Source of the DNA: Latilactobacillus sakei subsp. sakei DSM 20017 = JCM 1157
Lineage (GTDB): Bacteria; Bacillota; Bacilli; Lactobacillales; Lactobacillaceae
Assembly (NCBI RefSeq): GCF_002370355.1
Contig: NZ_AP017929.1
Location: 1-64,000, forward strand
Direction: 5' to 3'
DNA: 64,000 bases
Positions 10,517 through 61,752 of the stretch are shown here, piece after piece. A program made the translations under genes and the position numbers. Below the pieces are notes generated by a model, which did no database searches, had not been told where the DNA came from, and saw only the letters and a program-made list of their open reading frames with translations. Within the stretch, counting starts at the first letter, position 1. Every line of letters begins with the position of its first letter.

Positions 10517-11257
10517 TTATTTTTCAAGCCAACCACCATCGATTGGTACCACGGTTCCGTGGATGTAATCAGAGGCTTGACTTGCTAAATACAAACTTAA
10601 CTGAGCAACCTCTGCCGGTTGTGCCCAGCGACCAGCTGGCGTTTGACGCGCCACCTCTTTGGCCATTTCACCAGCGCCCGCAAAATCGGCAGCGTTCATC
10701 GGTGTTTCAATTGCGCCTGGTGCGATGCAATTCGCCCGAATACCTTGGCTTGCGTAATCGTAATCCAGCTGCTTAGTATAACCGATAATCGCATGCTTAG
10801 AAGCCGTATAGGCCGCACCGCCGCCGCCAGCCACTAATCCGGCAATTGAAGCCATGTTAACAAAAACGCCTTCGTGGCGAGCTAGCATACTTGGTAGTAC
10901 CGCATTAGTCACTAAAAACTGGCTTTTCAAATTGACCGCCATCAGATTATCCCAATCAGCCTCACTTGTTTCAAGCGTTGGTGTGTATTGGTCCAATATG
11001 CCCGCTGTATTACAGACAATATCAAATGACGACACTGTCGCTAACAAATTTTTTAACGTTGCCGTTAATTGGGGAGCGTCCCGAATATCGACTTGTACCG
11101 TTTTTAAACCGTCTGCCGTCTGCGTAATCGGCGCCTTATCTAATGCAATAACCATCGCACCCTCCGCCAAAAAAGCTAGCATTTGGGCCTTGCCAATACC
11201 GGAAGCGGCGCCAGTGACTAAAACCGTCTTTTGTTTTAAATCCGCAAAATGACCCAT
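10517..11257 (-). CDS. Short-chain dehydrogenase/reductase (FabG-like)
   Basis: 246-aa classical SDR. TGAASGIGKAQ (about 16-26) is the NAD(P) loop, the NxA segment is CNTAG, and the catalytic Tyr-Lys pair lies in AYTASKHA; the C-terminal IDGGW is typical. Automatic annotation would call it 3-oxoacyl-ACP reductase, but it is not in a fatty-acid cluster, so the substrate is unknown. Its ATG overlaps the stop of the upstream DUF2829 gene (TAATG), so translation is coupled. The DUF1858 gene starts 20 bases downstream. Confidence 0.85.
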   Translation of the reverse strand: MGHFADLKQKTVLVTGAASGIGKAQMLAFLAEGAMVIALDKAPITQTADGLKTVQVDIRDAPQLTATLKNLLATVSSFDIVCNTAGILDQYTPTLETSEADWDNLMAVNLKSQFLVTNAVLPSMLARHEGVFVNMASIAGLVAGGGGAAYTASKHAIIGYTKQLDYDYASQGIRANCIAPGAIETPMNAADFAGAGEMAKEVARQTPAGRWAQPAEVAQLSLYLASQASDYIHGTVVPIDGGWLEK

Positions 11258-12050: not shown

Positions 12051-12103
12051 AAAAGGAAGGGCTAGGACAAAGTAAATTTGCCCTAGCCCTTCCTTTGTTT
12101 TTT
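12051..12103 (-). terminator. Strong terminator of the manLMN transcript
   Basis: Fifteen-base arms (AAAGGAAGGGCTAGG and complement, 12052-12066 / 12081-12095) with a minus-strand T-run. It lies after the two structured repeat units that follow manN. Confidence 0.9.
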
Positions 12104-12222
12104 TAACGTGCTTTTCAAGCTAACTTTCTGTGCTTAGCGTCGTGAATCAAATAATCGACTGCGTCGCTCATTCGCTTCCCTATGCTAATGCTCAAAAGTT
12201 GACCAAGCTTGAACGCACTTTT
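12104..12222 (-). repeat. Structured 3' repeat, array A unit 2
   Basis: About 119 bp on the minus strand, from GTGC (12215-12218) to GCAC (12108-12111). Paired arms: TTCAAGCT/AGCTTGAA, AACTTT/AAAGTT, TTAGC/GCTAA and apical CGAC/GTCG. It has the family internal motifs TTTGAGCATTAGC and CACAGAAA. Confidence 0.8.
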
Positions 12223-12225
12223 TTT

Positions 12226-12345
12226 TAAACGTGCTTCAGCAGGCATATTTCTGCGGTTAACCAAATTTGCCAAATCGGTACTTTCAGCCCCAATTCGTCA
12301 AATCCAGTTAATCCTCAAAATATAAACACCTGCTTACGCACTCTT
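12226..12345 (-). repeat. Structured 3' repeat, array A unit 1
   Basis: About 120 bp starting directly after the manN stop codon, same strand as manN, from GTGC (12338-12341) to GCAC (12231-12234). Paired arms: AGCAGG/CCTGCT, ATATTT/AAATAT, TTAAC/GTTAA. The apex is more irregular than in other units. The 12002-12345 gap holds this, unit 2 and the manLMN terminator; no gene is seen. Confidence 0.8.
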
Positions 12346-13257
12346 TTACATTAAGTGTAATAGATGGAAAACAATTCCGACTACGAATAAGCCAAGAATA
12401 ATAACGATTGGTGATACTTTCTTCTTAAGTAACCACATACAGAATAATGTTAAACCTAATGCAGCTAAACCAGGAATCAAGCTATCTAAGTTATCTTGTA
12501 AAGTTGTAATCTTATGATCTGTCAATGACAAGCCTTGTGCTTGTTGTTGTAATGCAGATTGAATGCCTTTAGCACCACTTGGTAATTTATCCCAATCGAT
12601 GAAAGCACCCTTATCTAATTTAACAGATGAGACAGTTGGTGTGAACTTAACTGATACCCATCTATTAACCAGTGATCCCAAGATGAACATCCCAAGGATT
12701 GAAGCACCCTTAGTAATATCTTGTAAAATACCACCAGATAAATCTTCAGTAATCTTAGAACCAGCACGGTAGCCGAATTCTTGTGTGTACCATGTAAATG
12801 CCATACGGATGGCATTCCATGCAACGAAATAAATGATTGGGCCAAGAATGTTACCACTCATAGCAAGTGAAGCAGCTAAAGCACCGATAATTGGTTTAAC
12901 AGTAAACCAGAAAACGGGATCGCCGATACCAGCTAAAGGTCCCATCATACCAACTTTAACCCCTTGAATCGTAACATCATCAATTGGTGCACCATTAGCA
13001 CGTTCTTCTTCAAGAGCTAAAGTAACCCCAAGAATTGGTGCAGCAACATAAGGATGAGTATTAAAGAATTCCATGTGACGAACTAAAGCTGCTGAACGAT
13101 CTTCTTTAGTCTTATATAACTTCTTAAGTGCTGGGATTAATGTATAAGCCCAACCACCATTTTGCATACGTTCATAATTCCAAGAACCTTGAAGGAAAGT
13201 TGAACGTAACCAAACAGAGATACGATCTTTTTTTGTTAATTTTAGTTGTTCTGCCAT
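12346..13257 (-). CDS. manN: Mannose-class PTS transporter subunit IID
   Basis: 303-aa EIID membrane subunit that forms the sugar channel with EIIC. The N-terminal WNYERMQNGGWAYTLIPALK and GVKVGMMGPLAGIGDPVFWF are hallmark EIID signatures; C-terminal membrane spans follow. It is 18 bases downstream of manM. The complex imports and phosphorylates mannose, glucose, fructose or glucosamine, and in lactic acid bacteria is also a receptor for class IIa bacteriocins. A pair of structured repeats begins at its stop codon. Confidence 0.96.
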   Translation of the reverse strand: MAEQLKLTKKDRISVWLRSTFLQGSWNYERMQNGGWAYTLIPALKKLYKTKEDRSAALVRHMEFFNTHPYVAAPILGVTLALEEERANGAPIDDVTIQGVKVGMMGPLAGIGDPVFWFTVKPIIGALAASLAMSGNILGPIIYFVAWNAIRMAFTWYTQEFGYRAGSKITEDLSGGILQDITKGASILGMFILGSLVNRWVSVKFTPTVSSVKLDKGAFIDWDKLPSGAKGIQSALQQQAQGLSLTDHKITTLQDNLDSLIPGLAALGLTLFCMWLLKKKVSPIVIILGLFVVGIVFHLLHLM

Positions 13258-25800: not shown

Positions 25801-25884
25801 TACCGGTGATCGGGGTCGAACCGATACTTCCGTGAGGAAACGGGATTTTGAATCCCGCGCGTCTGCCAATTCCGCCACACCGGC
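25801..25884 (-). tRNA. tRNA-Leu (CAA)
   Basis: Cloverleaf with long variable arm; anticodon CAA; acceptor GCCGGTG with a G-U first pair. CCA is not encoded. Last of 27 tRNAs after the 5S gene. Confidence 0.9.
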
Positions 25885-25921
25885 ATCTTACAGAACGTTT
25901 AAGGTTAGCGCCTAAACGCAA

Positions 25922-25992
<71 letters not shown>

Positions 25993-26019
25993 ATAAAAGA
26001 ACAAATCCTGTCCTTGAAA

Positions 26020-26091
26020 TTGGGCTAGCTGGATTCGAACCAACGCATGACAGGATCAAAACCTGTTGCCTTACCGCTTGGCCATAGCCCA
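26020..26091 (-). tRNA. tRNA-Gln (TTG)
   Basis: Cloverleaf with anticodon TTG; acceptor TGGGCTA/TAGCCCA. Confidence 0.92.
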
Positions 26092-26100
26092 ATAATAAAA

Positions 26101-26174
26101 GGCGGTATGTGGGAATCGAACCCACGTGTGTCGGATCCACAAACCGATGTGTTAACCACTTCACCAATACCGCC
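26101..26174 (-). tRNA. tRNA-His (GTG)
   Basis: Anticodon GTG; the extra G at -1 pairs with C73, the His identity element. Confidence 0.92.
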
Positions 26175-26232
26175 ATTATTAACATGAATAATTATACCAT
26201 AGTTGCAATGTTTATGCAACATATAATATAAA

Positions 26233-26303
26233 CAGGGATAGTAGGAATTGAACCCACACTGACGGTTTTGGAGACCGTAGTTCTACCTTTAAACTATATC
26301 CCT
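26233..26303 (-). tRNA. tRNA-Trp (CCA)
   Basis: Anticodon CCA; G73 discriminator; acceptor AGGGATA/TATCCCT. Confidence 0.92.
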
Positions 26304-26310
26304 ATAAATA

Positions 26311-26391
26311 TGGAGGAGAGTGGATTCGAACCACCGAACCCGAAGGAGCGGATTTACAGTCCGCCGCGTTTAGCCACTTCGCTACTCCTCC
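26311..26391 (-). tRNA. tRNA-Tyr (GTA)
   Basis: Anticodon GTA with the long variable arm expected of bacterial tRNA-Tyr. Confidence 0.92.
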
Positions 26392-26396
26392 AAAAA

Positions 26397-26469
26397 TGGC
26401 GCAGGACAGAATCGAACTGCCGACACATGGAGCTTCAATCCATTGCTCTACCAACTGAGCTACTGAGCC
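26397..26469 (-). tRNA. tRNA-Phe (GAA), copy 1
   Basis: Anticodon GAA. The acceptor stem GGCTCAG/CTGCGCC has a U-C mismatch at position 4-69, shared with copy 2. Part of a duplicated Phe-Asp-fMet block. Confidence 0.92.
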
Positions 26470-26478
26470 ATTTTGAAA

Positions 26479-26552
26479 CGGTCACAACGGGACTCGAACC
26501 CGTGATCTCCTGCGTGACAGGCAGGCGTCCTAACCAGCTAGACCATGCGACC
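26479..26552 (-). tRNA. tRNA-Asp (GTC), copy 1
   Basis: Anticodon GTC; G73; part of the duplicated block. Confidence 0.92.
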
Positions 26553-26555
26553 AAA

Positions 26556-26629
<74 letters not shown>

Positions 26630-26638
26630 ATAATATAA

Positions 26639-26729
26639 AGGAGAATGAGAGATTCGAACTCTCGCGTGGGCAGAACCCACCTGACGGTTTTCAAGACCGT
26701 TCCCTTCAGCCAGACTTGGGTAATTCTCC
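26639..26729 (-). tRNA. tRNA-Ser (TGA)
   Basis: Anticodon TGA, long variable arm; acceptor GGAGAAT/ATTCTCC. Confidence 0.92.
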
Positions 26730-26759
26730 ATAAAAACTATAAATGTAACAATGTTACAA

Positions 26760-26831
26760 TGACCCGTACGGGATTTGAACCCATGATACCGCCGTGAAAG
26801 GGCGGTGTCTTAACCACTTGACCAACGGGCC
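26760..26831 (-). tRNA. tRNA-Glu (TTC)
   Basis: Anticodon TTC in stem CCGCC/GGCGG; acceptor GGCCCGT with one G-U pair. Confidence 0.92.
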
Positions 26832-26839
26832 ATACAAAA

Positions 26840-26927
26840 CGGAGAAGGAGGGATTTGAACCCTCGCGCCAGTTTCCCGACCTACACCCTTAGCAGGGGCG
26901 CCTCTTCAGCCACTTGAGTACTTCTCC
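26840..26927 (-). tRNA. tRNA-Ser (GCT)
   Basis: Anticodon GCT, long variable arm, G73. Confidence 0.92.
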
Positions 26928-26941
26928 AAATATTTAGATAA

Positions 26942-27015
<74 letters not shown>

Positions 27016-27021
27016 ATGAAA

Positions 27022-27092
27022 AGCGGGTGACGAGAATCGGACTCGCGACAACAGCTTGGAAGGCTGTGGTTTTACCACTAAACTACACCCGC
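27022..27092 (-). tRNA. tRNA-Gly (TCC)
   Basis: Anticodon TCC; acceptor GCGGGTG/CACCCGC; U73. Confidence 0.92.
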
Positions 27093-27104
27093 ATATTCAT
27101 GATA

Positions 27105-27177
27105 TGGCGCAGGACAGAATCGAACTGCCGACACATGGAGCTTCAATCCATTGCTCTACCAACTGAGCTACTGAGCC
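27105..27177 (-). tRNA. tRNA-Phe (GAA), copy 2
   Basis: Identical to copy 1 including the U4-C69 mismatch. Confidence 0.92.
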
Positions 27178-27184
27178 ATTTAAA

Positions 27185-27258
27185 CGGTCACAACGGGACT
27201 CGAACCCGTGATCTCCTGCGTGACAGGCAGGCGTCCTAACCAGCTAGACCATGCGACC
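27185..27258 (-). tRNA. tRNA-Asp (GTC), copy 2
   Basis: Identical to copy 1. Confidence 0.92.
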
Positions 27259-27260
27259 AA

Positions 27261-27334
<74 letters not shown>

Positions 27335-27379
27335 ATAATATAAAAATATTATAACCACCTACAAAATCTCACCAAACGA

Positions 27380-27453
27380 TGGACCTTGTAGGACTCGAAC
27401 CTACGACCGGGCGGTTATGAGCCGTCTGCTCTAACCAACTGAGCTAAAGGTCC
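27380..27453 (-). tRNA. tRNA-Ile2 (CAT, lysidine type)
   Basis: Anticodon CAT, but the body (GGACCTTTAGCTCAGTTGG start, extended identity with the B. subtilis minor Ile tRNA) indicates the AUA-reading tRNA modified by TilS, not Met. Anticodon stem GACGG/CCGCC holds an A28-C42 mismatch. Confidence 0.85.
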
Positions 27454-27467
27454 AAGTTTTTTGAAAA

Positions 27468-27541
27468 TAGCGGCGAAGGGGATCGAACCCCCGACCTCCC
27501 GGGTATGAACCGGACGCTCTAGCCAGCTGAGCTACACCGCC
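27468..27541 (-). tRNA. tRNA-Met (CAT), elongator
   Basis: Anticodon CAT; the body matches the elongator Met of Bacilli; acceptor GGCGGTG/CGCCGCT. Confidence 0.88.
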
Positions 27542-27579
27542 AAAAAACTTAAATTTATAACATGTAACTTACGTTACAA

Positions 27580-27653
27580 TCGGGAAAACAGGATTCGAAC
27601 CTGCGACCCCCTGGTCCCAAACCAGGTGCTCTACCAAGCTGAGCTATTTCCCG
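27580..27653 (-). tRNA. tRNA-Pro (TGG)
   Basis: Anticodon TGG in stem CTGGT/ACCAG; acceptor CGGGAAA/TTTCCCG. Confidence 0.92.
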
Positions 27654-27658
27654 TTATA

Positions 27659-27732
27659 TGCACCCAGTAGGAGTCGAACCTACAACCTTCTGATTCGTAG
27701 TCAGACACTCTATCCAGTTGCGCTATGGGTGC
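27659..27732 (-). tRNA. tRNA-Arg (ACG)
   Basis: Anticodon ACG (inosine at the wobble position expected); acceptor GCACCCA. Confidence 0.92.
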
Positions 27733-27746
27733 ATTTTTCATTATGA

Positions 27747-27832
27747 TGCCGAGGACCGGAATCGAACCGGTACGGTAGTCACCTACCGCGGGATTTTAAG
27801 TCCCGTGCGTCTGCCAGTTCCGCCACCCCGGC
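27747..27832 (-). tRNA. tRNA-Leu (TAA)
   Basis: Anticodon TAA, long variable arm, A73. Confidence 0.92.
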
Positions 27833-27846
27833 TTAATCATAATGAA

Positions 27847-27918
27847 AGCGGAAGACGGGATTCGAACCCGCGACCCCCACCATGGCAAGGTGATGTTCTA
27901 CCACTGAACTACTTCCGC
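27847..27918 (-). tRNA. tRNA-Gly (GCC)
   Basis: Anticodon GCC; acceptor GCGGAAG/CTTCCGC. Confidence 0.92.
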
Positions 27919-27925
27919 ATCTTAA

Positions 27926-27998
27926 TGCCGACTAGACGATTCGAACGCCCGACCCTCTGATTACAAATCAGATGCTCTACCAACTGAGCTAAGTCGGC
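27926..27998 (-). tRNA. tRNA-Thr (TGT)
   Basis: Anticodon TGT; the T-stem contains two G-U pairs. Confidence 0.9.
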
Positions 27999-28033
27999 AT
28001 AATAAGATAACTTTCATTGAATATTCAATTGAA

Positions 28034-28117
28034 TGCGGGTGAAGGGACTTGAACCCCCACGTCTATATAGACACTAGAACCTAAATCTAGCGCGTCTGCC
28101 AATTCCGCCACACCCGC
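28034..28117 (-). tRNA. tRNA-Leu (TAG)
   Basis: Anticodon TAG, long variable arm. The third leucine isoacceptor of the cluster. Confidence 0.92.
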
Positions 28118-28140
28118 ATTTTGGCGTGTAACTTGGCCGA

Positions 28141-28213
28141 TGAGTCGTGACAGGCTCGAACTGTCGACCCTCTGATTAAAAGTCAGATGCTCTACCAACT
28201 GAGCTAACGACTC
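28141..28213 (-). tRNA. tRNA-Lys (TTT)
   Basis: Anticodon TTT; acceptor GAGTCGT/ACGACTC. Confidence 0.92.
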
Positions 28214-28215
28214 AA

Positions 28216-28288
28216 TGGAGGTTACAGGGCTCGAACCTGTGACCCTCTGCTTGTAAGGCAGACGCTCTCCCAACTGAGCTAAACCTCC
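28216..28288 (-). tRNA. tRNA-Val (TAC)
   Basis: Anticodon TAC. First tRNA after 5S rRNA, 11 bases from it. Confidence 0.92.
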
Positions 28289-28299
28289 ATTAAATATAG

Positions 28300-28416
28300 C
28301 GTGGCAACGTCCTATCCTCGCAGGTAGTTTCCCACCAACTACTATCGGCGCTAAGAAGCTTAACTACTGTGTTCGACATGGGAACAGGTGTATCCTTCTT
28401 GCTATCGCCACCACAC
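28300..28416 (-). rRNA. rrf: 5S ribosomal RNA
   Basis: About 117 bases beginning TGTGGTGGCGATAGCAAGAA on the minus strand, with matching 3' end GCCAC. Conserved 5S elements (GAACACAG region, CCCATG) are present. It lies between 23S and the tRNA cluster. Confidence 0.95.
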
Positions 28417-28452
28417 TATTTGTGCTTGCGCACTGAGAAGAACTTCGTTCTC

Positions 28453-28504
28453 TCAAAACTGCATAATAAGTAATATTTTCATTTCAAAAGCCAAACATTG
28501 CACC
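28453..28504 (-). other. 3' half of the pre-23S processing stem
   Basis: AAAACTGCATAATAAGTAAT (from about 28455) is complementary to the region near 31535-31567 upstream of 23S, forming the long helix cut by RNase III-type enzymes. Confidence 0.7.
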
Positions 28505-31424
<2,920 letters not shown>

Positions 31425-31596
31425 TATCTTTACCTACGGTAAAGGGTTATTATTTGAGTTTAGCGATATGAACTAATTCATATTTCTATTATTAAAAAAC
31501 TCTTTAAAACGCAATGTTTTTCTCGGCTTTTAAAACTAATATATTACTTATTATCCAGTTTTCAAAGAACAAAGTTACGATGACTATTGTCATCAA

Positions 31597-31669
31597 TGGA
31601 GGATAACGGGATCGAACCGATGACCTCCTGCGTGCAAAGCAGGCGCTCTCCCAGCTGAGCTAATCCCCC
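31597..31669 (-). tRNA. tRNA-Ala (TGC) in the 16S-23S spacer
   Basis: Anticodon TGC; acceptor GGGGGAT/ATCCTCC with one G-U pair. It and the Ile tRNA are the usual spacer pair. Confidence 0.94.
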
Positions 31670-31695
31670 ATAATGAAACTATTAAATTGGTACAA

Positions 31696-31769
<74 letters not shown>

Positions 31770-31802
31770 AAAAACGTCCTTAATGATGAGAGTAGACCTC
31801 TC

Positions 31803-31826
31803 AAAACTAAACAAAGTTTTGATTTC
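31803..31826 (-). other. 3' half of the pre-16S processing stem
   Basis: AAAACTAAACAAAGTTTTGA is complementary (one mismatch) to the stretch at 33535-33557 upstream of 16S, forming the pre-16S processing helix. Confidence 0.75.
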
Positions 31827-31853
31827 GCAAATGTACAAGGTTTTCCGTATTAT

Positions 31854-33437
<1,584 letters not shown>

Positions 33438-51912: not shown

Positions 51913-51960
51913 TTACAAAAAGCCCCCACATCTTGATTGGATGTGGGGGCTTATTTTTTT
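51913..51960. terminator. Bidirectional terminator
   Basis: AAGCCCCCACATC / GATGTGGGGGCTT with flanking A- and T-runs, between convergent DUF4811 and nagB units. Confidence 0.9.
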
Positions 51961-51961
51961 T

Positions 51962-51990
51962 GGAAACGCGCTTCCTGTCGCAGCACTCTT
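51962..51990 (-). repeat. Truncated structured 3' repeat, array B unit 2
   Basis: Only the base of a unit: AGAGTGC, a short linker and AAGCGCGTTTCC on the minus strand. The middle of the unit is missing. Confidence 0.55.
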
Positions 51991-51995
51991 ATTCT

Positions 51996-52114
51996 TAAAC
52001 ATGCTCCTTCAGGCATACTCTTCCGGTTAGTTACACATCGCAAACGATCGCCTTTGGCGCTCATTCACGATATGCCACTAATCCTCAGAGTATAACCGCC
52101 TGCTGTCGCACTCT
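51996..52114 (-). repeat. Structured 3' repeat, array B unit 1
   Basis: Begins inside the nagB stop codon (TAG-AGTGCG), same strand as nagB. Paired arms: CAGGC/GCCTG, TATACTC/GAGTAT, TTAGT/ACTAA, ATCG/CGAT and apical CGCC/GGCG. The closing GCAC has become GCAT. Confidence 0.8.
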
Positions 52115-52820
52115 ATTTTGATAACAAGCTTGCTGCTGCTTCGTCCACGATGATTGTCACGTCGTCGTGTAGTTGTAAAGCACTTGCTGGAACGTCTGTT
52201 GTTTGTGGGCCTTCTACTGTGCCTTTGATGGCTTCAGCTTTTGATTCGCCGTATGCGAACAAGACGATCTTCTTAGCCTTTAAGATTGAGCCAATGCCCA
52301 TTGAGATTGCTTTTGTTGGTACATCTGCTTCGTTTTCGAAGAAACGAGCGTTAGCCTTAATTGTTGATTCTGTCAATTGCACTTCTTGTGTGTTGCTGTC
52401 AAAAGCAGCACCTGGTTCGTTAAAACCGATGTGACCATTTTGGCCGATACCAAGAATTTGGATGTCTACTGGGTTATCGGCAATGACTTGGTCATAACGT
52501 TTTAATTCAGCAGGAATATCACTTGCCAAACCGTTTGGTAAGTATGATTTTGCAAATGGTTTCTTATTAAATAGGTTTTCTTTCATGAAGTAGTGGTAAC
52601 TTTGGCTGTTATCAGCTGATAAACCAACATATTCATCCAAGTTAACTGATGTACAGTTTGTGAAGTCTAGGTCACTTGCAACAACTGTTTCGTAGAATTT
52701 GATTGGTGAACTACCAGTTGCCAAACCGAATACTTTCGCGTCGTTTGCTAAACCTTCTTTGAAGATTTCAAAGCCTTTTTGGCCGCCTTCTACTTGATCT
52801 TTTACTTTAATAATTTTCAT
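52113..52820 (-). CDS. nagB: Glucosamine-6-phosphate deaminase
   Basis: 235-aa cytosolic enzyme converting glucosamine-6-phosphate to fructose-6-phosphate and ammonia. [12 protein letters not shown] near 35, NLDEYVGL (catalytic Asp region), [16 protein letters not shown] (catalytic loop) are signatures. The short Gram-positive form without the allosteric C-terminus. Its promoter is overlapped by a NagR/YvoA-type operator (52858-52873), so induction by amino sugars is likely. A structured repeat unit begins in its stop codon. Confidence 0.95.
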
Positions 52821-56924: not shown

Positions 56925-58022
56925 ATGAATAATCAATTAGCCCAATTACAAAATTGGCTTGTCGAGAATAATATGGATGTGGCTTACATTAGTAATCCAA
57001 CGAACATCCTCTATTTCACTGGTTTTGAAAGTGATCCTGCAGAACGGGTTTTAGCCCTCTTTGTTTTTGCAGATCAGGACCCATTCCTATTTACACCACA
57101 ACTAGAAGTTGAATCTGCTAAGAAGGCTGGCTGGAAACTTGATGTTTATGGTTACCTTGATCATGAAGATCCATATGCCATCATCGCAGATCAAATCAAG
57201 AAACGGATGGCCAACCCAACACGTTGGGCTCTTGAAAAAGACGACCTTCCCGTTCAACGTTATGAAGCAATTCTAAAGCAATTCCCTAACGCAACATTCC
57301 CTGGTGATGCATCACGCTTCATGGAAAACTTAAAATTAATCAAAACACCTGAAGAAATTGCTTTAATGGAAGCAGCCGGCCGCGAAGCTGACTACGCCTT
57401 TGAAGTTGGTTTCAACGCTTTAAAAGCTGGCAAAACAGAACAAGACATCGTTGCTGAAATCGAATATGCTTTAATGCGTAAAGGCGTTATGCATATGAGT
57501 TTCGATACAATTGTACAATCAGGCATCAACGCTGCTAACCCACATGGTGGCCCAGAAGCTAATATCTTAACACCTGATGCATTAGTGCTCTTTGATCTTG
57601 GGACATTACACAAAGGTTATATGAGTGATGCGACACGGACTGTTGCTTTTGGTAAACCAGATGCTAAGTCACTTGAAATCCACAAAGTTTGTCTTGAAGC
57701 AAACTTAGCTGCACAAGATGCTGTTAAACCCGGCATTACAGCTGCTGAATTAGATAAGATTGCCCGCGACGTGATTACGAAGGCCGGTTATGGCGAATAC
57801 TTTATTCACCGTTTAGGTCATGGGATTGGGACTTCAGAACACGAATTCCCATCAATCATGGAAGGTAACGACATGATTATCAAACCAGGCATGTGCTTCT
57901 CAATCGAACCAGGGATTTACATCCCAGGTGTTGCCGGTGTCCGGATTGAAGACTGTGTCCACGTTACAGAAACAGGCGCAGAATCATTCACACACATGAC
58001 AAAAGAACTACAAACATTCTAA
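56925..58022 (+). CDS. pepQ: Xaa-Pro dipeptidase
   Basis: 365-aa M24-family prolidase, cytosolic. N-terminal creatinase-like domain (1-125), then the pita-bread metal domain with DLGTLHKGYMSDATRT (two Asp ligands), HRLGHGIG (His), FSIEPGIYIPG and VRIEDCVH (two Glu). Releases proline from dipeptides. Divergent from ccpA, as in many lactobacilli, where CcpA controls both. An array of four structured repeats starts at its stop codon. Confidence 0.95.
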   Translation: MNNQLAQLQNWLVENNMDVAYISNPTNILYFTGFESDPAERVLALFVFADQDPFLFTPQLEVESAKKAGWKLDVYGYLDHEDPYAIIADQIKKRMANPTRWALEKDDLPVQRYEAILKQFPNATFPGDASRFMENLKLIKTPEEIALMEAAGREADYAFEVGFNALKAGKTEQDIVAEIEYALMRKGVMHMSFDTIVQSGINAANPHGGPEANILTPDALVLFDLGTLHKGYMSDATRTVAFGKPDAKSLEIHKVCLEANLAAQDAVKPGITAAELDKIARDVITKAGYGEYFIHRLGHGIGTSEHEFPSIMEGNDMIIKPGMCFSIEPGIYIPGVAGVRIEDCVHVTETGAESFTHMTKELQTF

Positions 58023-58139
58023 GAGTGCGTCATTAACGGGGAGCTTTTGAGCATTTGCCTAGTGTTGTGAATGAACGGCTCTGCCGGTCGTTTTGCAATA
58101 CGTAGCAAAGCACAGAAAGCTGTTAATGAAAGCACGTTT
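58023..58139 (+). repeat. Structured 3' repeat, array C unit 1
   Basis: Starts immediately after the pepQ stop. GTGC (58025-58028) to GCAC (58132-58135). Paired arms: CATTAAC (58031-58037) / GTTAATG (58122-58128), AGCTTT/AAAGCT, TTTGC (58054-58058) / GCAAA (58105-58109), and apical CGGC/GCCG. Confidence 0.85.
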
Positions 58140-58145
58140 CGGATA

Positions 58146-58265
58146 AAGTGCGTAAGCAAGCGGTTATATTTTGAGGACTAGCCTAGTCTGGTGAATGACC
58201 AACTCGTTGGTCGTTTAACGGACGTAGCTAGCCGCAGAAATATGCCTGCTGAAGCACGTTTCAAG
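58146..58265 (+). repeat. Structured 3' repeat, array C unit 2
   Basis: GTGC (58148-58151) to GCAC (58254-58257). Paired arms: ATATTT/AAATAT, CTAGC/GCTAG, apical GACCAAC/GTTGGTC. Lower-stem AGCAAGC / GCCTGCT has one mismatch. Confidence 0.85.
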
Positions 58266-58267
58266 TA

Positions 58268-58389
58268 AGAGTGCTGATTCGAACGAATTGGCTTTGAGGA
58301 TTAACTTAAAAACGCGGATTATGACGCTCTTGGTCATGATTCGCGTTTTTTGTTAACCGGAAAAGGCAGTTCGAAGAAGCACGTTTCAA
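58268..58389 (+). repeat. Structured 3' repeat, array C unit 3
   Basis: GTGC (58271-58274) to GCAC (58379-58382). Paired arms: TTCGAAC/GTTCGAA, TTAAC/GTTAA. The apical hairpin is replaced by an intrinsic-terminator-like one (AACGCG.../CGCGTTTTTT). Confidence 0.85.
58310..58352 (+). terminator. Terminator-like hairpin inside repeat unit C3
   Basis: AAACGCG-GATTATGAC, loop GCTCTTG, GTCATGATT-CGCG then TTTTTT. Likely terminates pepQ transcripts within the array. Confidence 0.7.
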
Positions 58390-58393
58390 ATAA

Positions 58394-58511
58394 GAGTGCC
58401 CTTAATTGCGTCTAGCAACTAAGCATTAATACAAAATGAGCCATAATCTTGGTTTTAAGATTATGGCTCATTTTAGATTAAGCGGAAGTTGTTGCAATTA
58501 ATGGCACGTTT
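58394..58511 (+). repeat. Structured 3' repeat, array C unit 4
   Basis: GTGC (58396-58399) to GCAC (58504-58507). Paired arms: TTAATTGC/GCAATTAA, CAACT/AGTTG, TTAAT/ATTAA, and a terminator-like apical hairpin AAAATGAGCC/GGCTCATTTT. Confidence 0.85.
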
Positions 58512-58516
58512 CAGAT

Positions 58517-58570
58517 AGAGTACTGTGCCAAACGGGTAACTTCTACGAAAGGTGTTACAATCACCCCTCC
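58517..58570 (+). repeat. Degenerate fragment of the structured 3' repeat, array C
   Basis: Begins GAGTACTGTGCC, resembling the 5' end of a unit, then loses similarity. The 58023-58615 gap contains only this array and the following terminator. Confidence 0.45.
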
Positions 58571-58576
58571 AAATTA

Positions 58577-58611
58577 AAAAGCCCTCACAATCAGTGAGGG
58601 CTTTTTAACAA
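58577..58611. terminator. Bidirectional terminator
   Basis: AAAAAGCCCTCACAA with complement TGTGAGGGCTTTTT equivalents; between the repeat array and the YtxH gene. Confidence 0.85.
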
Positions 58612-60562: not shown

Positions 60563-61459
60563 ATGCCACTAATTAATGCACTCAAAGGCGCCCTAATCGG
60601 TGTCGCACTCGTTATTCCTGGTTTATCTGGTAGTATCTTTGCCGTCATCGTTGGTTTATATGAACCATTATTAAAGGCCATCGCGCAGTTCAAACAAGAT
60701 TGGCGCCAAGCAATTGGCTTTTTATGGCCAATCGGTATTGGCGCGGGCATCGGTGTATTATTATCGACCAAAGTTATTTTATGGTTATGCACCGCTTATC
60801 CACTGGCCGCTTATAGTTTCTTCATCGGCCTCGTTTTAGGTAGCTTACCGTTCATCTGGCGCAAGCTTAAAAAGCTAAACTGGCAGCAAGTCTTAATTGC
60901 CATTGCCTGTGGTGGCTTGATGTTATTGATTACCAAAATTGGTGGTCATCAAAACGAATCTGACATTGCCATCAAACAACTAACGTCCCTCCAAGATTTC
61001 GGGATGTTAACCTTTACCGGCTTTTTCTCCGTTTCATTGATGGTGATTCCCGGTGTTTCGGGTTCGATCATGTTAATGATTATCAAACAATATGGTACCG
61101 TCTATCACGCCGTTAGCCAATTACTCGATTTGCTCGTTTATCTCGTTACCGGCCGCTTTGAACAGGCAGGCGAGGCTTTCAAAAGTGTCGCCCTCCTCTT
61201 GCCATTTATGCTAGGCGCTGTGATTGGGACCGTGATTGTCGCTAAAATCATGCATTACTTACTCGCTCACTATGCCCAATATGTTTATGCTGGCGTTTTA
61301 GGCGTGATCCTAGCAGCCATCTGGATCCTAGCTGAAACAGGCGTTGTACCCGCTTGGCCGGCCGTGGGTGGTTTAACCGCACTACTAGGGCCAATCGCAT
61401 TAATTGCCGTGATGCTCGTCTTAGGAGCCATTGCAACGATTTACTTCGATCGCGCCTAA
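60563..61459 (+). CDS. DUF368 membrane protein, probable polyprenyl-phosphate transporter
   Basis: 298 aa, about eight to nine spans. LKGALIGVALVIPGLSGSIF and the repeat-like FFSVSLMVIPGVSGSIMLMI are the two PG-x-SGS motifs that define DUF368 (PopT family), shown in other bacteria to translocate undecaprenyl phosphate back to the cytosolic face. A DedA-family gene (36510) in this window provides the alternative family. Two tandem structured repeats begin at its stop codon. Confidence 0.87.
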   Translation: MPLINALKGALIGVALVIPGLSGSIFAVIVGLYEPLLKAIAQFKQDWRQAIGFLWPIGIGAGIGVLLSTKVILWLCTAYPLAAYSFFIGLVLGSLPFIWRKLKKLNWQQVLIAIACGGLMLLITKIGGHQNESDIAIKQLTSLQDFGMLTFTGFFSVSLMVIPGVSGSIMLMIIKQYGTVYHAVSQLLDLLVYLVTGRFEQAGEAFKSVALLLPFMLGAVIGTVIVAKIMHYLLAHYAQYVYAGVLGVILAAIWILAETGVVPAWPAVGGLTALLGPIALIAVMLVLGAIATIYFDRA

Positions 61460-61582
61460 AGAGTGCGTTTGAAACGCTTTGACTTTGAGCATTAGCACAG
61501 CTCGGTGAATAACTGCTGCAAGCAGTTGTTTGACGAGTAACGCTAAGCGCAGAAAGATACTGACAAAAGCACGTTTAAAATC
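61460..61582 (+). repeat. Structured 3' repeat, array D unit 1
   Basis: Starts directly after the DUF368 stop. GTGC (61463-61466) to GCAC (61569-61572). TTAGC/GCTAA, CTCG/CGAG, apical AACTGCT/AGCAGTT pair, but the 3' outer arm does not complement its own 5' arm, unlike unit 2. Confidence 0.85.
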
Positions 61583-61700
61583 AGAGTGCGTTTGAAACGC
61601 TTTGGCTTTGAGCATTAGCACAGCTCGGTGAATAACTGCTGCAAGCAGTTGTTTGACGAGTGACGCTAAGCGCAGAAGGCAGTTTCAAAAAGCATATTTT
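61583..61700 (+). repeat. Structured 3' repeat, array D unit 2
   Basis: Near-identical tandem copy of unit 1 at a 123-base period through the first 100 bases; outer arms TTTGAAAC/GTTTCAAA pair perfectly. Closing GCAC is GCAT. The 61460-61764 gap contains the two units and the terminator; short ORFs inside are not genes. Confidence 0.85.
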
Positions 61701-61708
61701 AGCCATCA

Positions 61709-61752
61709 AAAAAAGCGTTACGACTGACTTTTGCCGCAACGCTTTTTTAATG
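61709..61752. terminator. Bidirectional terminator after array D
   Basis: AAAAAAAGCGTTACG with complement CGCAACGCTTTTTT. Confidence 0.8.

Follow-up and report, generated by a model that had tools for sequence, protein, structure and literature searches.

Behind a gene for a PepQ-like peptidase in Latilactobacillus sakei subsp. sakei DSM 20017 lies a tandem array of repeats, each of about 117 nt and predicted to fold into one intricate hairpin. What kind of element are these repeats, and how did they come to lie at the end of a gene? The array is part of the stretch analysed here (the window), which is the first 64,000 bases of the 1.94-Mb genome. An earlier note, made from the sequence alone, had claimed that nine such units in four arrays share one fold, that their strong covariation means that the fold and not the sequence is conserved, that GTGAATGA facing TCGTTT is a core common to the units, and that they constitute an unrecognised family of 3' repeats.

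Nine units in four arrays of the window

The claim of nine full units in four arrays with one fold held: all are present on direct reading of the sequence, and a covariance model built from them (R1) has only these nine matches in the window at E <= 1e-5. A tandem-repeat finder returned no rows. Folded singly, the nine units have predicted folds that are all alike, at -38.7 to -63.3 kcal/mol; the folded stretch scoring -63.3 kcal/mol also includes a unit remnant at 51964-51989.

Array A, on the plus strand, contains four units. The first (58022-58138; R1 score 104.6 bits) starts on the last base of the stop codon of the PepQ-like gene (gene 56925-58022, TAA 58020-58022; stop distance -1) and is followed by units at 58145-58260 (116.3 bits), 58268-58385 (89.9 bits) and 58393-58510 (94.8 bits). 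The claim of a common core held only in part, because in units three and four a long perfect hairpin with an A-run and a T-run replaces GTGAATGA/TCGTTT, resulting in terminator-like cores with uninterrupted stems of 18 bp and 19 bp, respectively, that end in a T-run. The decayed left half of a fifth unit, recognised by its likeness to unit 5' ends and without a model match, lies at approximately 58515-58560, and a terminator-like hairpin at 58576-58607, read from the sequence as the inverted repeat AAAAAGCCCTCAC...GTGAGGGCTTTTT, closes the putative 3' UTR.

The other plus-strand array, B, has units at 61460-61575 (97.9 bits; distance 0 to the TAA at 61457-61459 of the gene 60563-61459) and 61583-61698 (110.7 bits), with a terminator-like hairpin at 61708-61749. 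Arrays C and D are on the minus strand. Array C begins with a unit at 12228-12344 (109 bits), at a distance of +1 nt from the TAA (12346-12348) of a PTS EIID gene (12346-13257), and continues with a unit at 12105-12221 (110.2 bits), a position that in the related genome G005 is occupied by a different, shorter unit; its terminator-like hairpin lies at 12052-12097. The single full unit of array D (51998-52114; 110.5 bits; distance -2) overlaps the TAG (52113-52115) of a NagB-like gene (52113-52820), and is followed by the remnant of a second unit, reduced to its outer ends (approximately 51964-51989), and by a terminator-like hairpin at 51916-51956. All four arrays therefore start -2 to +1 nt from the stop codon of the preceding gene and have a terminator-like hairpin on their 3' side, the hairpins and the array D remnant being read from the sequence.

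The host genes of the window, for a PepQ-like peptidase, a NagB-like deaminase, a PopT-like transporter and PTS EIID, resemble ordinary metabolic or transport genes; among their four products only the EIID protein exceeds a curated family cut-off. The PepQ-like protein is 95% identical to its counterpart in L. fragifolii, 93% in L. fuchuensis and 95% in L. graminis. Elsewhere in the window, an rRNA operon (5S, 23S, 16S) and a dense tRNA cluster occupy 25801-33434 on the minus strand, with no unit match within.

Copy number in the genome

R1 found at least 149 full-length matches at E <= 0.001 in the DSM 20017 genome (G000), a count that is a lower bound because only 150 of 532 candidates were scored; one place with E = 0.024 was dropped. 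The stretches around matches outside the window were searched again together with the window itself. We dropped duplicates where loci overlapped, together with five reverse-strand rows of low score on counted units, and added eight further places by hand, giving 157 units for examination. Together these make up roughly 18 kb, about 1% of the genome. They form 94 same-strand arrays, of which 55 are single, 22 double, 10 triple and 7 quadruple, with a spacing of mostly 122-126 nt (range 117-127) and hence a period of ~123 nt. Both array orientations are mixed along the chromosome, apart from a bin at 1.6-1.8 Mb in which 10 of 12 are on the minus strand. It is unlikely that chromosome position alone dictates orientation, though this is not ruled out in detail.

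A conserved fold with a bias to the sense strand

The units share a conserved fold, and their paired positions covary. Each has the layout 5'-AGA, hairpin, GTT-3'. From its base upwards, the hairpin comprises a base helix (GTGC/GCAC and variants), an outer helix, a bulge of 4-5 nt on the 5' side, an internal loop in which TGAG.A faces.CAG, an inner helix and a core stem. For the nine window units RNAalifold gave 38 pairs, 27 of which show compensating double changes. Across 142 distinct units of the genome, double changes occur in 34 of the 38 pairs, and 96.6% of 5381 pair cells are paired, compared with 72.6% in shuffles and 33-41% when the partner was slid by 1-3 columns. The covariation score of 0.696 for these units compares with 0.238 for shuffles and 0.05-0.10 for slid partners, and none of 500 shuffles reached any of five covariation measures. 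Chance palindromes are ruled out by these shuffle and slide controls. One of the alignments, A2, was fitted to the model and so leans towards it; the MAFFT alignments A1 and A4 were not fitted. Unpaired positions are among the most fixed of the unit, with one A present in all 142 units; within TGAG, the G is kept in 140 and the A in 138.

In a multi-genus set of 47 units, nine of which come from beyond the Lactobacillaceae, double changes were found in 34 of 36 pairs. The base helix also covaries across genera, appearing as GTGC/GCAC, GCGC/GCGC or GAGC/GCTC, and the outer AGA and GTT are mostly constant.

The fold is biased to the sense strand. In the 34 pairs without a dominant G-U, G-U combinations outnumber A-C by 216 to 63, and over all 38 pairs by 524 to 67; the exception is one loosely aligned outer pair (G-U 1, A-C 19). 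With RNA parameters, the sense strand is predicted to be more stable than its complement in all 154 units tested, by a mean of -10.6 kcal/mol. The strand of each unit was taken as assigned by the covariance model, and the test was confined to units of at least 105 nt, which left out 3 of the 157. The same preference is seen with DNA folding parameters (151 of 154 units), and stability therefore settles the strand and not the choice between RNA and single-stranded DNA. A terminator-like core, defined as a stem of 12 bp or more that has no interruption and leads into a T-run, is present in 12 of the 154 units.

Arrays lie behind stop codons in the sense of the gene

Within the genus Latilactobacillus, arrays are placed behind stop codons in the sense orientation of the gene. 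With ORFs of at least 60 aa, 69 of the 94 arrays start -15 to +30 nt from an upstream stop on the same strand and 25 do not; 66 of the 94 lie within -3 to +12 nt of a sense stop. The stops ahead of the 69 arrays are 50 TAA and 19 TAG, with no TGA. When only ORFs of at least 100 aa were considered, 66 of 94 arrays were behind a sense stop and 2 of 94 were in the mirrored arrangement, in which the stop of a converging gene lies at the 3' end of the array. Drawing free positions and orientations at random within these stretches gave 8.3 expected, with a maximum of 19 in 10,000 draws, against the 66 observed; for the narrower range of -3 to +11 nt the figures were 3.5 expected (maximum 12 in the draws) and 64 observed.

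The placement is repeated in relatives, with 26 of 39 arrays in G005 and 31 of 40 in G001 behind a sense stop and none mirrored in either genome; the stretches from these two genomes were picked partly around known matches and are not a random sample. In one annotated Latilactobacillus curvatus record the MutS2 coding sequence ends at base 1500 and a match, covering the unit from base 3 onward, starts at 1501. In a second, the last base of the trmB coding sequence is 1474; the match again starts at 1501 and covers the unit from base 29 onward. On the other side of the arrays, a strict rule found a terminator-like hairpin downstream of 33 of the 94, compared with 2 of 94 in a control stretch, and an ORF on the same strand starts within 60 nt downstream of 11. 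These counts, taken with the placement at stops, give a common order of stop codon, a variable number of units, and terminator or next gene. In one place in the DSM 20017 genome, a four-unit array (778027) lies about 30 nt downstream of the end of a T-box leader that is just at the gathering threshold (L185:1978-2171).

Beyond Latilactobacillus, placement at sense stops is weaker, holding at about half of the places or fewer. In one set of more distant loci, 13 of 24 units were behind a sense stop, although nine of the 24 are from L. fuchuensis and so from within the genus; two of the 26 loci in this set (L153, L154), read on the wrong strand, were left out. A set of short distant loci, examined with ORFs of at least 60 aa, gave 14 of 34 units, and further sets gave 5 of 11 and, within 30 nt of a sense stop, 6 of 20. 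The last set also had three units one unit length behind a sense stop and one mirrored. Some of the distant units that are not at a stop are second units of arrays.

Turnover between relatives and probable dispersal within the genome

We compared the same stops between DSM 20017 and its relatives. The flanks in G005 are mostly about 90-98% identical to those in G000. The number and identity of units nevertheless change at the same stop between close relatives. At orthologous stops in G000 and G005, respectively, there are four and two units at 58022, two and four at 838257, three and a stub at 793283, and two and none at 61460. By manual reading of the first 70 nt, the first unit was the same at 12 of the 28 stops comparable with G005, different at 12, and absent or a stub at 4; at the 15 stops comparable with G001 it was similar at 3, different at 6 and absent at 6. 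Relatives without any unit exist for the stops at 61460, 1069035 and 1122090. In L. fragifolii, L. fuchuensis and L. graminis the PepQ-like proteins terminate in identical residues, whether or not a full unit lies behind the gene. In L. graminis only the left half of a unit is kept there, fused to a terminator-like hairpin (L049 after base 11095), and it is possible that units decay into terminators, as this fusion suggests. Unit remnants were seen in the window and in relatives, but we have no sound count of them.

Units also seem to disperse within the genome. Arrays separated by tens to hundreds of kb or more contain single units that are 97-99% identical to each other, and their likeness ends at about the AGAGTGC and GCACGTT borders, at the base of the hairpin; the thing copied therefore seems to be the hairpin itself. 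The flanks of near-identical copies share no fixed duplication, and empty sites are blurred by remnants, with few clean ones. Tandem duplicates of 98-100% identity also exist.

Units that remain in place show pairing constraint. Orthologous pairs were accepted only at an identity of at least 0.80, which gave 35 pairs in G005 and 3 in G001. The G000/G005 pairs are 93.9% identical, and among single changes with at least one side paired, 52 of 98 keep pairing, against an expected share of 0.36 for random change from the paired state at the observed transition share (p = 4e-4). Counted over all single-side changes, 52 keep pairing, 46 leave one of the two units unpaired and 1 leaves both unpaired. 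Of 13 double changes, 12 are compensatory. In the three G001 pairs, 7 of 13 single changes keep pairing and 4 of 4 double changes are compensatory. Conversion of orthologous units could, however, have inflated the compensatory counts.

Distribution across genomes

At E <= 0.001, R1 matched in all six Latilactobacillus genomes, with 149, 150, 24, 150, 23 and 139 matches under a scoring ceiling of 150, so that the high counts are lower bounds. Copy number forms two groups, with 23-24 in G002 and G004 and at least 139 in G000, G001, G003 and G005, and these groups point to either an expansion or a mass loss. At the same threshold R1 matched in 72 of 151 Lactobacillaceae genomes, representing 19 of 40 genera. 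Of 80 loci taken around a single gene from named genomes, 10 contained a match, and the genera with a match at named loci include Companilactobacillus, Lactiplantibacillus, Lapidilactobacillus, Levilactobacillus and Liquorilactobacillus.

Matches in Bacilli beyond the Lactobacillaceae were weaker. In a sample of the order, 28 of 295 genomes matched at E <= 1e-4, 11 of them from outside the family. A broader model, R2, matched in 14 of 398 genomes of the class, DSM 20017 included; eight of these belong to one genus of a family (f17) that is probably Staphylococcaceae, since the Staphylococcus aureus sRNA family tsr24 matches beside one unit. R2 was built with units of the DSM 20017 genome, G160, G336, G220 and G263, so that the matches in G000 and G160 are not independent. 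The distant loci that we inspected share the unit architecture, several of them in tandem. We regard the homology of the matches within the Lactobacillales as firm; beyond that order it is likely. In one genome with six matches (G545), a distant R2 match (L304:1501-1619) lies 4 nt after the end of the 23S rRNA and before the 5S rRNA. This match could be an element of this kind placed at the 3' end of an RNA, or a similarly shaped spacer stem.

Searches of plasmid records with distant units gave no match, and neither did searches of a phage collection with a window array and with a distant unit. Two L. curvatus records called plasmids, CP117684.1 (592 kb) and NZ_CP016468.1 (220 kb), do contain matches. 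The genes beside the units in these records include mutS2, dltA and trmB, which are usual on chromosomes, and the records may be chromosome pieces.

Comparison with known elements

No Rfam 15 family matched over any unit at gathering score, in the window or in 33 loci. The only matches in the scanned sequence were rRNA, tRNA, T-box, 23S-methyl and tsr24, none of them over a unit, and below threshold there were only unrelated chance-like hits. The identification of the units with a known Rfam RNA was therefore rejected. Y1 transposase (PF01797) was above cut-off in none of the six Latilactobacillus genomes, with a positive control in 5 of 14 named genomes; G004 has one sub-threshold Y1 fragment with stops. 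Reverse transcriptase (PF00078) was found in none of the same six genomes, with a positive control in 3 of 14. On these grounds we rejected both a Y1-driven REP and a reverse-transcriptase retro-element (group II intron, retron or DGR). To look for an autonomous version that carries a gene within the hairpin, we scanned for half-units lying far apart and found nothing convincing. The scan returned mostly pairs from neighbouring units and a few distant ones, using a crude and insensitive pattern that recovers 99 full units against about 300 for the model; its left-only and right-only counts are therefore no evidence of half-units.

Among described repeats, the closest in kind are the REP/BIME elements of enterobacteria, mobilised with RAYT Y1 transposases, which are likewise small, high-copy extragenic hairpins in 3' UTRs and sometimes form arrays. 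REPs close to stop codons are reported to affect translation (Liang and Deutscher). REP/RAYT palindromes are defined by a GTAG (or CGTC) tag at one end (PMC3733652). The units lack this tag, having mostly AGAG, AAAG or GAAG at the 5' end and CGTT at the 3' end, and they differ further in their length of about 117 nt, their multi-loop architecture, their sense orientation behind stop codons and the absence of Y1 above cut-off. BOX, a named repeat family as is RUP (PMC2267715), resembles the units as a structured intergenic repeat of Bacilli, in this case of Streptococcus pneumoniae; BOX is built of boxA, boxB and boxC modules. The same likeness applies to Bcr1 of the Bacillus cereus group (PMC2267715, PMC3733652), with which no sequence comparison was made. 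In genera of the same class, the palindromic intergenic repeats Efa-1 of Enterococcus (163 nt, two adjacent stem-loops) and Sta-1 of S. aureus (105 nt, a single stem-loop) have been described (PMC2267715), and EFAR has been classed as a bacterial MITE (PMC3733652). A distant relationship of Efa-1/EFAR and Sta-1 to the units is possible, although their sequences were not compared. For Lactobacillus johnsonii, the relevant passages of PMC2267715 give only the genic family Lac-1. With regard to the terminal inverted repeats of MITEs, the units have GTGC/GCAC at the hairpin base, and their outer AGA and GTT are not complementary.

We found no description of these repeats in Lactobacillaceae in the open-access literature searched, which leaves most subscription papers outside. 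The 2005 genome paper of Lactobacillus sakei 23K reportedly mentions SINE-like repeats. The term 'LaSa-SINE' did not occur among the top-ranked papers of the open-access literature searched; if those SINE-like repeats are these units, the novelty falls. With this reservation, the claim of an unrecognised family is supported by the absence of any Rfam match over a unit and of a description in that literature, with Efa-1/EFAR and Sta-1 remaining as possible relatives. The claim of strong covariation held and was strengthened by the larger number of copies. The term 3' repeats held and can be refined, since most arrays in the genus abut stop codons in the sense orientation, and the family, with at least 149 places in the genome, is larger than the earlier note had recognised. 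Beyond what that note had proposed, the stop-codon placement in sense, the gain, loss or exchange of units at shared insertion points and the occurrence of near-identical single units in distant arrays are new.

What the units may be

We lean, by a modest margin, towards classifying the units as mobile, RNA-structured 3'-UTR repeats that are REP- or BOX-like in lifestyle and move by an unknown route. In this reading, they would be small non-autonomous mobile hairpin elements of ~117 nt that reside in mRNA 3' UTRs and are copied singly, either to new sites behind stops or beside an existing unit; insertion next to a resident unit would then generate arrays with a period of ~123 nt. Units would be co-transcribed between the stop codon and the terminator, for which we have no expression data, and the folded sense strand, most likely as RNA, would be recognised by a cellular factor. 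Their spread may be largely selfish and tolerated because a site behind a stop is harmless, and a resident unit may act as a structured 3' end, either as a barrier to 3'-to-5' exonucleases or as an insulator. Since neither Y1 above cut-off nor a reverse transcriptase was found in the genus, two familiar ways of moving repeats of this kind seem closed, and the units may spread by a different transposase or recombinase, or through recombination. As a whole, this explanation has the edge over its competitors without being secure. Counting against it are the 25 of 94 arrays away from a sense stop, the weaker placement outside the genus, and the fact that neither a mobilising enzyme nor a target-site duplication was identified. 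The sense placement is most readily understood if the transcript in its folded form matters, whether for movement or because antisense copies are harmful, two possibilities that cannot be separated here.

The most serious competitor is that the units are host-serving RNA elements of 3' UTRs, in which a conserved protein or nuclease binds the hairpin and sets the 3' ends or stability of mRNAs, so that selection keeps the copies and dispersal is secondary. The nearly invariant unpaired bases (A in 142/142, G in 140/142), the constraint on units in place, the precise placement at stop codons and the presence in 72 of 151 Lactobacillaceae genomes all speak for this possibility. Against it stand the turnover of first units at the 28 G005 and 15 G001 stops, the range of copy number within the genus from 23-24 to at least 139, and the remnants. 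A host function in mRNA 3'-end stability is nonetheless plausible and compatible with a mobile hairpin. Less probable is an element acting purely at the DNA level, with a folded single DNA strand as the substrate, as for REP/Y1 or attC/integrase, and no role for RNA. The DNA parameters that favour the sense strand (151/154) are consistent with such an element, and tandem arrays of fixed period recall cassette-like insertion. This reading is opposed by the lack of Y1 above cut-off in 6/6 Latilactobacillus genomes, bearing in mind that other recombinases, including integron integrases, were outside the search, and by the occurrence of both array orientations side by side in most of the chromosome, the exception being 1.6-1.8 Mb. 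A single-stranded DNA form as such cannot be excluded, given the result with DNA parameters.

It is very unlikely that the units serve as, or carry, intrinsic transcription terminators or attenuators. The 12 of 154 units with a terminator-like stem, which include 58268-58385 and 58393-58510, and the left half-unit followed by a terminator-like hairpin behind the L. graminis PepQ-like gene could be taken in its favour; however, 142 of 154 units have no such core, and separate hairpins follow at least 33 of the 94 arrays. The remaining proposal is that selection played no part and that the covariation arose as an artefact when template switching corrected quasi-palindromes. Quasi-palindrome correction can yield matching changes in both arms of a palindrome. 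It would, however, remove the 5' bulge and the loops of mismatched bases, yet the bases at these places are among the most conserved; nor would it produce an excess of G-U over A-C on one strand. This proposal is all but excluded.

A bolder version of the mobile-hairpin reading, which we put forward only as a possibility, is that the units represent RNA-level mobile hairpins found throughout the Bacilli that target the 3' ends of coding genes in sense (and, in a single genome, a position 4 nt after a 23S rRNA), that spread in a manner linked to transcription or RNA without Y1 or reverse transcriptase, and that shape many 3' UTRs. The precision at stops, the sense orientation and the lack of detectable Y1 or reverse transcriptase raise the question of how a hairpin finds the end of a gene. 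If transcribed, the 69 arrays determine the 3' UTRs of the genes that they directly follow, and the units would bear on mRNA stability, on termination and on strain typing in food bacteria. The unit alignment could become an Rfam family.

A second repeated feature is visible on the downstream side of some arrays. In the DSM 20017 genome several terminators, for example those downstream of 1083213, 811868, 902478, 127537 and 1063378, share sequence around GACAAAATTACTTTTGTC, and a common lead (like ATCAATATTYGGATATC) stands directly after a unit. These terminators could be a second repeated module, or units and terminators could have been copied together.
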